In this document: piece after piece, positions 1-58,816 of the stretch
Layout of the letters: every line of letters starts with the position of its first letter
How positions within the stretch are numbered: position 1 is the first letter of the stretch
DNA from: a bacterium
GTDB lineage: Bacteria; UBP15; UBA6099
Assembly (NCBI GenBank): GCA_029564595.1
Contig: JAKQPS010000157.1
Span: 1 to 64,000 of the forward strand
DNA: 64,000 nt
Direction: 5' to 3'
Translations under genes and position numbers: made by a program
The notes under the pieces: generated by a model
What the model was told of the DNA's origin: nothing
Seen by the model: the letters and a program-made list of their open reading frames with translations, nothing else
Database searches by the model: none

Positions 1-154
1 AACCGGGGCAATTTTCATAGCGGCGAACTGCTTCGTTGCCGCCGCATTTTTTTGTTCATGAACAATAAGTTCTATTCACTGCAAAAATGCGCCTTGCGCC
101 TCGCATTTCATCCGCTCTGAACAATCGCTCCCGAATCCTAATGACGGATTCGGG
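1..154 (+). repeat. dispersed structured repeat, family A, copy 1
   Basis: Non-coding. It shares AACCGGG, then TAGCGGCGAACT, then a 7-bp stem AAATGCG (85-91)/CGCATTT (102-108), then CTGAACAATCGCTC (117-130) and a terminal 9-bp hairpin CCCGAATCC (130-138)/GGATTCGGG (146-154) with the copy at 51893-52074. Head, stem and tail also recur at 377-547. It further contains a GCGGC(g)AAC/GTTGCCGC stem near 20-43 and the palindrome TTGTTCATGAACAA. The left end may lie outside the window. The conserved unpaired linker and preserved stems suggest an RNA or a MITE/REP-like element. Which of these it is cannot be told from the sequence. Confidence 0.7.
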
Positions 155-166
155 TTAAATGAAACC

Positions 167-251
167 TCCCACTCAAAAATAAGGGTGCCACCCCCAAACT
201 CGTTGGGGGCGCTCCAAACAGTTTCGCCGGAAGTGGGAAGATTCATCTAAT
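167..251 (+). repeat. nested-hairpin element, family B, copy 1
   Basis: The outer inverted repeat TCCCACT (167-173)/AGTGGGA (232-238) encloses an inner hairpin CCCCCAA (191-197)/TTGGGGG (203-209) and a second stem GGCG...AAAC/GTTT...CGCC (about 208-228). GATTCATCTAAT follows at 240-251. The copy at 13238-13302 has a different outer stem and a different inner stem but the same layout and the same trailing ATCATCTAAT. The structure, rather than the sequence, is conserved. No coding potential is seen. The stretch 252-376 holds nothing I recognise. Confidence 0.55.
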
Positions 252-376: not shown

Positions 377-547
377 ATATCGGCGAACTGCTTCTCACGC
401 ACAAATGAATTTGTGCGTGCCACCCATCTATATTGCTTAACACTTCGGGCGGGGGCAAGCCCCGCCCCTACAGTAAAAAAACGCGCTTGCGTTCCGCGTG
501 TTATCCGCTCTGAACAATCGCTCCCGAATCCCAATGACGGGTTCGGG
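377..547 (+). repeat. family A repeat, copy 2, with remodelled middle
   Basis: The head CGGCGAACTGCTTC (380-394) and the tail match copy 1. The tail has the linker TCCGCTCTGAACAATCGCTC (504-523) and the hairpin CCCGAATCC (523-531)/GGGTTCGGG (539-547), with one T-G wobble. The stem before the linker is ACGCG (481-485)/CGCGT (495-499), where copy 1 has ATGCG/CGCAT, which is a compensatory T-A to C-G change. The middle is replaced by an 11-bp palindrome CACGCACAAAT (396-406)/ATTTGTGCGTG (409-419) and a GC hairpin GGGCGGGG (447-454)/CCCCGCCC (460-467). The latter resembles a GC-rich hairpin I recall as common in many bacterial genomes. Confidence 0.65.
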
Positions 548-589: not shown

Positions 590-1738
590 TCACATTCTGC
601 CGAAGGGGTCGTCCCGCCAGTCGGACATGAACGACAACAGCTTGTCCATGTCGGGAGTCTCGCCGGTCATCACGTAGTGGCCGGAGCAGCAGACGCCCAT
701 GAGAAGAGCGGTCTGAGGGTCGGCTCCGAGGGAGAGGGCGAGGGAGAAAGCCGCGTTGAAATGGTCTCCGGCTCCGGTGGTGATGACGGGGCGTTTCGTG
801 TGCGGGCCGTCCTGAAGGTATGTTTTTCCGCCGATGACGGTTACGGCGAATTCCACTGGATGAACGACGACGGAAAAGACGCCGAGGGCGCGGGAGATTT
901 CCTCGCAGGCGCGGGCGGCGGCGTCCGGCCCGCAAGCGTCGGCGGCGATGCCGAGCGCGGACGCTATCTGTCCGGCCTCGCGTCCGTTCAGGCCGAGTAT
1001 GACTTTATAGCGACTTGAAAACTTCGGAACTATGCTCAACATGCGTTTGATGTCGGACAATTCCCGTTTCTGCGGGTCGGCAAGGTCGATGAAGAAAAAG
1101 CGGTCAGCGGTTGTTGAAAGTTTCGGGAATATTTCTGAGATTATATTTTCCCAGATGTCGGACATGAAGGGGAGCATGCTCCAGTTGACGAGGGCGAGAA
1201 GGCGGGCCTCGTCCAGAAGGTTGACAAAACGCTCTTTGCCGACATCCTCCAGAATTCTGTCCCAAGTGACGTGTGAGACGGGGGCCATCTTTCCGACCAT
1301 GATTTTTCCGTCGAGGAATTCCACGGCGTCCGTATGGCAAGGTTCCGCGATGGATATGACGTTTGCTGCGTCTTTGAGAGGGCTGAAAACAGGATGGATG
1401 TCCGGTCTGCCGAGAGTTCCTATGTAAGTGGTTGATATTCCGAGGGAGGCGATGGCGTTTGCCATAATGGGGCCGTTGCCGCCTATCTTCACCCGCTGCG
1501 GCACATACTCTATGTTGCCGCTTTTGCCCGCGTAGCTTTTTATCCTCTCGGCGTAGTCCGACATCATTTCGAGCCGCGCGTATTCGGAGTTGTTTTTGCG
1601 GGTGTCCACCACGTGGACTATCTCGTCGATGAAGCCGTCCAGCCCGACGACGCAACGCATTTTTCCGGGCGCGTTGGCATTTGAGGATATGTTGTTTTTG
1701 AGCCGGGCGACAAGCTCTCGTTCTGTTTGTTGTGACAT
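590..1738 (-). CDS. PfkB-family carbohydrate kinase
   Basis: A 382-residue protein of the ribokinase/PfkB superfamily, which phosphorylates sugars or nucleosides with ATP; the substrate is not predictable. The C-terminal signature TTGAGDHFNAAFSLAL (about residues 318-333) carries the GAGD anion hole and catalytic Asp. An N-terminal VGLDGFIDE stretch and KIGGNGPIMANAIASLG provide the substrate-side motifs. The GAGDHF variant and the DGFID N-terminus set it apart from classical fructokinases and match a less studied subgroup. It is divergent from the amidohydrolase gene starting at 1840, and the 100-bp gap carries a candidate promoter for this gene. It stands alone on its strand, with repeats downstream. 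Confidence 0.85.
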   Translation of the reverse strand: MSQQTERELVARLKNNISSNANAPGKMRCVVGLDGFIDEIVHVVDTRKNNSEYARLEMMSDYAERIKSYAGKSGNIEYVPQRVKIGGNGPIMANAIASLGISTTYIGTLGRPDIHPVFSPLKDAANVISIAEPCHTDAVEFLDGKIMVGKMAPVSHVTWDRILEDVGKERFVNLLDEARLLALVNWSMLPFMSDIWENIISEIFPKLSTTADRFFFIDLADPQKRELSDIKRMLSIVPKFSSRYKVILGLNGREAGQIASALGIAADACGPDAAARACEEISRALGVFSVVVHPVEFAVTVIGGKTYLQDGPHTKRPVITTGAGDHFNAAFSLALSLGADPQTALLMGVCCSGHYVMTGETPDMDKLLSFMSDWRDDPFGRM

Positions 1739-10661: not shown

Positions 10662-10686
10662 CCCGAATCCTTCATTAGGATTCGGG
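10662..10686 (-). repeat. family A terminal hairpin alone, inverted; possible ftsY terminator
   Basis: CCCGAATCC (10662-10670), 7-nt loop TTCATTA, GGATTCGGG (10678-10686), followed by ATTATTATC. The 9-bp stem is identical to copy 1 at 130-154, and the loop matches the reverse complement of that copy's loop in six of seven positions. The element is therefore in the opposite orientation and lacks the rest of the repeat. It may serve as an intrinsic terminator for the smc-ftsY operon. Confidence 0.55.
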
Positions 10687-50561: not shown

Positions 50562-51791
50562 TCACTCGAATACTTTCTCATCCGTCAGGTGAGAGTTGAC
50601 AGCGTCTTCTTCTACGTCGCGCCCTGCGGGGCCGGATTTCTCAAGCTCTTTATAATATTCGTGCTGAATGAGCGCGTTCATTATCTGGTTCGTGCCCGTC
50701 CATATCATGGCGAGCCGCGAATCGCGAAGCAGCCTCTCGATGGGATAGACGTTCGTGTAGCCTATGCCGCCCATAATCTGCATGGAGTTGTTGATGGCCA
50801 GCCAAGAGTTCTCCGTGCCGACCTTTTTCGCCTCTGAGACGAGCCTGCGGGCGTCCTGTCCGGAATCGACTTTTCGGGCAGCGGCGTACACCAATCCGCG
50901 CGCCGCGTCGAGAGCGGACAGTGAATCGGCCAGCATGAAATTGACCGCCTGAAACTTCATGATTGCGCGCCCGAAGGCTTTGCGCTGAGTGGAGTACCGC
51001 GCCGCCACTTCGACGCACGCGCGCCCAGTGCCGACCGCTCCGGCGGCGCTCGTCAGCCGCTCCGGTATCATCATCTTGTTGAATATCATTCCGCCGCCGT
51101 TGAGCGGGCCGACCAAGTTCTCGGCGGGCACTTTCACGTCCTTGAAAATTATCCTGCCCGTACCGCTTCCCCTGCTGCCCATCAATCCGTACACTTCCTG
51201 CACCTCGACCCCGAAGTCCCGCTCGACTATGAAGACGCTTATCGATTCGTGCGCCGGAGCGTCGAACGCCGTCCTAACGTAAACGAGGAAATAGTCCGCT
51301 CCTTTTGCGCCGACTATGAATCTTTTCTGACCGTTGAGAATGTAATAGTCGCCTTTCTTTTCCGCTTTAGTGGTCGCGCCGAAGAAGTCTGAGCCTCCGC
51401 GCGGCTCGGTGAGAGCCTCGGCGCATATCATCTTGCCGGCGAGCGTCGGCTTGAGATATTTCTCTTTCTGGGCGTCCGTGCCGAACAGCGCGATGGCGTC
51501 CCCGATGATGCTCGGAAGCGAATAGAGGCAGGCCAGAGAAGTGCCCAGAGTCCCGAACTCTTCGAGAACGGCCACTTCCGCGCTCCAGCCCAGACCCCTG
51601 CCTCCCCATTCCTTCGGGAACCGCAGGCCGAGCAGGTTTGCTGCGCCAAGTTTCTGGACATATTCGTAAGGATACTCTATCTCGTCGCGGTCCATCGATT
51701 TGAGAAGCTCGTTGGGGACCTCTTTCTTTATAAAATCCACAGCTTCCTGCCGCAGTTTTTTCTCCTCGTCGTTAAGCATGAAATCGAACAT
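50562..51791 (-). CDS. acyl-CoA dehydrogenase
   Basis: 409 residues, FAD-dependent alpha,beta-oxidation of acyl-Co[22 protein letters not shown] matches the flavin/substrate motif (EPxxGSD), and the C-terminal [19 protein letters not shown] is the usual terminal block. In MCAD-type enzymes this block holds the catalytic Glu (YEGTxQI), but here it is Thr. A Glu is instead found in [15 protein letters not shown], the position used by isovaleryl- and long-chain acyl-CoA dehydrogenases. Upstream of AOR in what is likely one operon. Confidence 0.92.
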
Positions 51792-51892
51792 GGCTCTCCG
51801 CCTCCCTTTATTTGTCGAGCTTATTATATAACGACAGCCTTTAATAAACGAGAAGGAAGTTGTTGAACCCGGATTCTCCGATAGAGCCGGTG

Positions 51893-52074
51893 AACCGGGC
51901 CGATTGTTTATAGCGGCGAACTTCTTTGTTGCTGTCGTTGCCGTAGCATTTCGAGCCTAATTTATCACATATCGCGGCGGGAATCGGAGTTCCTGCTACA
52001 CAAAAAATGCGCCTTGTGTCTAGCATTTTATCAGTTATGAACAATCGCTCCTGAGTCCTAAAGATGGATTCGGA
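51893..52074 (+). repeat. family A repeat, copy 3, at the island edge
   Basis: AACCGGG (51893-51899), TAGCGGCGAACTTCTTTGTTGC (from 51911), stem AAAATGC/GCATTTT (about 52006-52029), TGAACAATCGCTC (52038-52050) and hairpin CTGAGTCC (52051-52058)/GGATTCGG (52066-52073). Every substitution in the last stem relative to copy 1 keeps Watson-Crick or G-T pairing. It sits between the acyl-CoA dehydrogenase gene and the AT-rich island. Confidence 0.7.
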
Positions 52075-52087
52075 CTGAAACAAAAAG

Positions 52088-58663: not shown

Positions 58664-58735
<72 letters not shown>

Positions 58736-58744
58736 TGAAAAAAA

Positions 58745-58816
58745 GGGTGGTTAGTTCAGAGGAAGAACGCTTCCTTGACACGGAAGAGGTCACAGGTTCA
58801 AGTCCTGTACCACCCA
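58745..58816 (+). tRNA. tRNA-Val (anticodon GAC)
   Basis: Acceptor GGGTGGT (58745-58751) pairs with ACCACCC (58809-58815), discriminator A. Anticodon stem CTTCC/GGAAG with loop TTGACAC, anticodon GAC. T-arm ACAGG-TTCAAGT-CCTGT. No encoded CCA. Nine nucleotides after tRNA-Cys, in the same transcript. Confidence 0.93.

Follow-up and report, generated by a model that had tools for sequence, protein, structure and literature searches.

The window, a stretch of 64,000 nucleotides corresponding to bases 1-64000 of contig C98, belongs to genome G000 (4.4 Mb in 203 contigs) from the candidate phylum UBP15. The three related repeat copies of the original prediction are real and lie in it at approximately 1-154, 377-547 and 51868-52074. 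Copies 1 and 2 lie past the 3′ end of the gene for a predicted ketohexokinase (590-1738, minus strand); copy 3 is located upstream of an acyl-CoA dehydrogenase gene (50562-51791, minus strand) and also upstream of a 222-codon open reading frame (ORF) without a Pfam match. Two adjacent tRNA genes (58664-58735 and 58745-58816, plus strand) gave the only Rfam matches of the window.

An intact element is about 179 bp long and reaches about 240 bp with nested inserts. It is bounded by imperfect terminal inverted repeats (TIRs; CCCGGATTCGTC / GACGGATTCGGG), and a complete copy is composed of WTNAW, CCCGGATTCGTCGATAGAGCCGACGAACCGGG, GCGATTTTCATAGCGG, a core, CCGCTCTGAACAATCGC, TCCCGAATCCTAATGACGGATTCGGG and WTNAW. 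At each end, an inverted partial copy follows the outer TIR, so that the end itself is a 25-32-bp pair of inverted ends. The boundaries originally given to the copies miss the 5′ end, where an extra left hairpin, CCCGGATTCGTCGATAGAGCCGACGAACCGGG, extends beyond the assigned start. This left end had been overlooked because copy 1 is cut by the start of the contig and copy 2 is without a left end.

Copy 1 (1..154, plus strand) lacks the first ~25 bases, contig C98 starting inside the element, and is therefore without the left TIR and the outer arm of the left hairpin; the same core is found with a full left end in many copies. Its right TIR hairpin (130-154, plus strand) is followed by the flank TTAAA (155..159), which fits WTNAW and stands where the target-site duplication (TSD) of complete copies is found; the partner of this flank on the left falls outside the contig. 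Several other contigs begin or end within a copy, as is usual where repeats break an assembly. Copy 2 (379..547, plus strand) is without left hairpin or TIR, and has its right TIR hairpin at 523-547 (plus strand). Its core holds two nested REP-like hairpins, namely a CACGCACAAAtgaaTTTGTGCGTG hairpin module (396..419), which is also present in sibling-species copies such as L109 and L132, and a GTAG-type REP-like hairpin, GTAGGGGCGGGGCTTGCCCCCGCCC (447..471, minus strand). Copy 3 (51868..52074, plus strand) is complete; the start first assigned to it, 51893, omits the left hairpin. Its left TIR hairpin lies at 51868-51899, the closing stem of the central hairpin at ~51900-51913 with ~52036-52047, and the right TIR hairpin at ~52050-52074 (all plus strand). 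The flanks TTGAA (51863..51867) and CTGAA (52075-52079) match at four of five positions. A solo right-end hairpin of 25 bp, CCCGAATCCTTCATTAGGATTCGGG, is located at 10662..10686 between TTGAA and ATTAT, with no exact TSD.

Searches of the whole genome yielded many further copies, and the family is dispersed. The left hairpin was found at 57 and the right hairpin at 52 places in the 4.4-Mb genome (control hits: 0). The linker CTGAACAATCGCTC gave 38 exact matches there and 117 with up to two mismatches (backwards control: 18), and a DNA search of the same genome gave 42 matches, many of them with 93-99% identity to copy 1 across ~156 bp. Each of three sibling species from the same candidate phylum carries 41-67 repeat matches. 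Exact matches to 24 bases of the repeat were obtained, by contig search, only in MAGs named UBP15 UBA6099, ADurb.Bin236 and USCA_metabat.19; viral contigs searched with the linker gave no match. About 60 genomic copies were compared together with their flanks, sequence being read around the matches only. There are more than 50 copies, nearly all of 177-242 bp and far too short for a transposase. Four insertions occupy orthologous places in different species (L019/L130, L024/L113, L050/L110 and L095/L158), and the sibling species G001 has copy 3 of the window at the orthologous place, so some copies are older than the species split.

Exact 5-bp TSDs flank 27 of 49 copies in the window's genome, where 4.8 are expected from shuffled right flanks. 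A slightly different copy set from this genome gave 26 of 54 (4.0 expected; no more than 12 in any of 5000 shuffles), and the loci of the siblings gave 42 of 54 (5.0 expected; maximum 14 in the shuffles). All exact TSDs fit NTNAW, and nearly without exception WTNAW. Exact TSDs were also found at about half of the copies in G004, which represents a sister genus, and at six of eight copies in G006, from another family of the order. Many copies have no exact TSD; these are aged or rearranged. Three elements (L038, L064 and L111) sit inside copies of an unrelated dispersed repeat, ATCGAATAAAGGGCGATCTACGTCGTTGAATCATCGACTCGAACTGC..., of which empty copies (L150 and L163; sibling species) hold a single TTGAA or TTCAA (gap -5); these related empty sites confirm insertion with a 5-bp duplication. 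At L021, the site is not continuous in the siblings and provided no clean empty site. A tandem of two MITEs was observed at L048:2399-2764 (G000:C38; 366-bp span, TTAAA flanks), in which one of the two appears to be an insertion at the right-hand end of a copy that is older and degenerate.

According to naive ORF calls, some of which lie inside elements, 46 of 56 copies are located outside ORFs, a crude figure. By the same naive calls, the 45 copies with ORF neighbours on both sides lie between convergent (16), tandem (26) or divergent (3) ORFs; the scarcity of the last arrangement does no more than hint at an avoidance of promoter regions.

The middle of the element, described earlier as variable, does vary, but not freely, as a few cores account for most copies. 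The short core GTTCATGAACC....GTTCTATTCACTGC is present in about half. In its place the others have a REP-like hairpin pair, AGTAGGGGCGCGGTTTCCGCGCCC...GGGGCGGGGCAACCCCGCCCCTACT, or else a CACGCACAAA/TTTGTGCGTG hairpin or a CCCCCAAAC/GTTTGGGGG hairpin. The variable middle thus consists of swapped or nested REP-like hairpins. The orthologous pair L027/L141 is unlike in the middle (234 versus 195 bp), from which it follows that this part can change after insertion. A small separate palindromic repeat, AAGGGTGCCACCCCCAAACTCGTTGGGGGCGCTCC, was noted 3′ of copy 1 (window 181-215) and in L041, L066 and L111; some MITE copies have a version of it exchanged into their middle. A form related to the GTAG-type hairpin of copy 2 (447-471), GTAGGGGCGCGG, occurs 53 times in the loci read from the window's genome.

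Being palindromic, mostly intergenic and multicopy, with GTAG-type REP-like hairpins nested in many copies, the repeats recall a REP/BIME-type family spread by a RAYT (Y1) transposase. Such a family would, however, hardly account for the exact 5-bp TSDs, as insertion of the IS200/IS605 type is not known to duplicate its target, nor for the ends, which match those of an IS1380-family insertion sequence (IS) described below. PF01797 (Y1 transposase) gave no match in the genome, whereas the control genomes were positive. A RAYT/IS200 origin of the element was ruled out by the missing Y1 transposase and the TSDs, and we regard the REP/BIME explanation as extremely improbable. The GTAG-type hairpins themselves are abundant, many of them nested in the MITE, although the genome has no detectable Y1 (RAYT) transposase.

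Suspicion fell on the IS1380 family because of the 5-bp TSDs and the appearance of the ends, and a transposase-domain search of the window's genome gave one intact gene, at the very start of contig C153. The IS (G000:C153:1-1536) is 1.54 kb long and carries an intact transposase of 449 aa, which scored 252.9 bits against the NCBIfam IS1380 model NF033539 (cut-off 180) and 149.8 bits against PF13701 (cut-off 34.7). Its ends, CCCGGATTCGTCAATAGA (in longer form CCCGGATTCGTCAATAGAACCC) and CTATTGGCGAATCCGGG, are like the left TIR of the MITE, CCCGGATTCGTCGATAGAGCC, but for A/G changes, with one A/G difference over 17 bp. MITEs of G004 and G006 begin with CCCGGATTCGTCAATAG, which is the IS end, the first 17 bp being exact. 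The interior of the IS assembles once, whereas its left and right ends are each found at four more contig edges. The four left flanks are TTTAA, TTCAA, TTTAT and TTAAA, and the five right flanks, including the C153 junction, are TTTAA, TTAAA, TTAAA, TTTAT and TTCAA. No left flank is without a counterpart on the right, so that the IS produces 5-bp TSDs like those of the MITE and exists in about five copies. A second IS1380-family sequence, L172 (G001:C172:393-1760), has an intact 497-codon frame but different ends, and was left aside. When left and right ends that lie within 6-8 kb of each other and share a TSD were paired in the loci read, no autonomous long copy emerged; apart from short elements there were a single nested tandem, a 2-kb pair due to coincidence, and a few pairings that arose by chance and lack genuine ends.

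The similarity between MITE and IS is confined to the terminal 17-18 bp, and the interior of the MITE is unlike the IS; the MITE is therefore not a simple deletion derivative. This restricted likeness would also suit mobilisation of the MITE by some other, unseen transposase with coincidentally the same ends and target, as would the finding that G003 and G004 carry the MITE while PF13701 gave no match in their assemblies (92% and 80% complete, respectively). In G002, IS ends were found at contig edges only. Multicopy ISs are easily lost from MAGs, and true loss of the IS in G003 or G004 is possible. Against a coincidence, the genome with the MITE also contains an intact, multicopy IS of the IS1380 family whose 17-bp ends are the same but for one A/G difference and whose TSDs are identical in length and pattern, which makes a different transposase very improbable.

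By folding, the element was found to form three hairpins: one at the left, one at the right and, between them, a long and imperfect central one. The linker, which had been taken to be unpaired, is not: CCGCTcTGAAcAATCGC pairs with GCGATTtTTCAtAGCGG of the head, and the linker is the 3′ arm of the stem that closes the central hairpin. Folds of the element strand lie below the energies of dinucleotide shuffles (z -3.3 to -7.6), as might be expected of a structured non-coding RNA or an RNA-level regulatory element (acting, for example, in mRNA stability or as a terminator) whose fold is under selection. The reverse strand, however, usually lies lower still (z to -8.1; copy 3 excepted, -0.7), and folding of both strands, the reverse usually better, is as expected of inverted repeats in DNA. 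At the gathering threshold, Rfam assigned nothing in the window to the repeats.

The closing stem also speaks for RNA. It is 97% paired in 41 sequences from this genus and G004; in 10 G004 sequences both partners differ in two of its pairs (G-C to A-U and U-A to G-C), and its covariation score exceeds that of all 500 shuffles. In G006, from the same order, the arms GCAATCGCAAtAAGGCA / TGCCTTcTTGCGATTGC are of other sequence and still pair, as judged from single folds of sequences whose ends are not reliably alignable. The covariation nevertheless comes from few lineages, the G004 copies having a common ancestor and hence representing few independent events, and the double-sided changes are not above the shuffles: five pairs are changed on both sides, against 6.3 in shuffled alignments, and 452 of 500 shuffles reach this count. 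Covariation supports the closing stem and not the other helices. RNAalifold, applied to the genus and G004, predicted few pairs, and these covary weakly; in that alignment the G004 left hairpin is off by one base. In the left hairpin, a change in one arm is often not accompanied by a change in the other, as in nine copies that combine TTCGCCG with CGACGAA. Copies 1 and 2 do show the compensatory change from T-A to C-G that was cited originally, but compensation is mostly absent genome-wide; over 58 copies the pair reads TA in 32, CA (broken) in nine, TG in six, CG in two and otherwise in nine, so that, once changed, it is mostly broken or wobble.

Maintenance by structure is partly borne out, by the closing stem of the central hairpin. 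We read the fold as an inverted-repeat DNA structure inherited by copying. The TIRs alone leave the keeping of the central closing stem unexplained, and this stem may be under constraint. The reading as functional RNA is not supported, having nothing in its favour apart from the folding; we consider it improbable, and the element should not be carried forward as a functional RNA.

Of the functional RNA or mobile palindromic element first proposed, the mobile element is thus retained, on the strength of its TIRs, TSDs, empty sites and IS, and the functional RNA is not. The TIRs, the 5-bp TSDs, the related empty sites and an IS with the same ends lead us to regard the repeat, with high confidence, as a gene-less MITE of ~179 bp which the IS1380-family IS of the same genome mobilises in trans through its transposase. 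Mobilisation by this IS is very probable, judging by the shared ends and target. The IS transposase would recognise ends of ~17 bp, CCCGGATTCGTC(A/G)ATAG, and insert the element at AT-rich WTNAW targets, giving rise to the 5-bp direct repeats; the hairpins may aid mobility, or may merely persist as copies of copies.

Some terminal hairpins occur alone. Two 32-bp left hairpins, at G000:C104:185-216 and G000:C112:21626-21657, are flanked on both sides by TTCAT and ATCAA, respectively, and a 66-bp hairpin-pair element in UBA6099 (L112:5727-5792) is flanked by TTTAT/TTTAT; the solo right hairpin at 10662-10686 and others have no or only partial flanking duplication. With a chance TSD rate near 10%, given the target preference, the duplications at solo hairpins are suggestive only. 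It is conceivable, though we rather doubt it, that the terminal hairpins are minimal mobile units of two inverted IS1380 ends, and that the full element represents two such units around a structured core. If so, they would be among the smallest transposing units known, and the central hairpin, which in another family pairs in the same way with a different sequence, would be under selection, perhaps because it enhances transposition or protects transcripts as RNA.

For a candidate phylum whose biology is almost undescribed, the MITE and its IS form a well-resolved pair with respect to ends, target, empty sites, copy numbers and insertions both shared and unshared. Several contigs that end in the MITE or the IS explain part of the fragmentation of these MAGs. 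A new MITE family, ordinary in kind and with a matching IS1380-family partner, is well supported, and its dependence on IS1380 is likely; no IS1380-derived MITE was found in the literature searched.

Like other prokaryotic MITEs (Correia elements, ERIC, Chunjie, QMITE2 and TIMEs), the element is short, gene-less, multicopy and mostly intergenic, with TIRs and direct repeats, and a strong RNA-level fold such as that seen here is known from other MITEs (PMC4133298, PMC10969869). It differs from them in that its ends and 5-bp WTNAW target match IS1380, and in that each TIR lies in a hairpin of its own beside a separate central hairpin. The 5-bp target duplication is shared with the published IS1380-family members IS1247 (PMC3281130) and ISEcp1 (PMC2887853), from which the MITE differs by the absence of a transposase gene and of internal similarity to the IS. 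REP/BIME palindromes with GTAG resemble the inserts of type-2 MITE copies, which consist of GTAG and a hairpin followed by a hairpin and CTAC; here, in contrast, the GTAG hairpins are guests nested inside a MITE, and no Y1 transposase was detected in the genome. TIME-COMP composite non-autonomous transposons (PMC13367494) likewise place two inverted-end units around a passenger segment; by comparison, the flanking units found here are hairpins of only 25-32 bp, and the passenger is a non-coding hairpin core.
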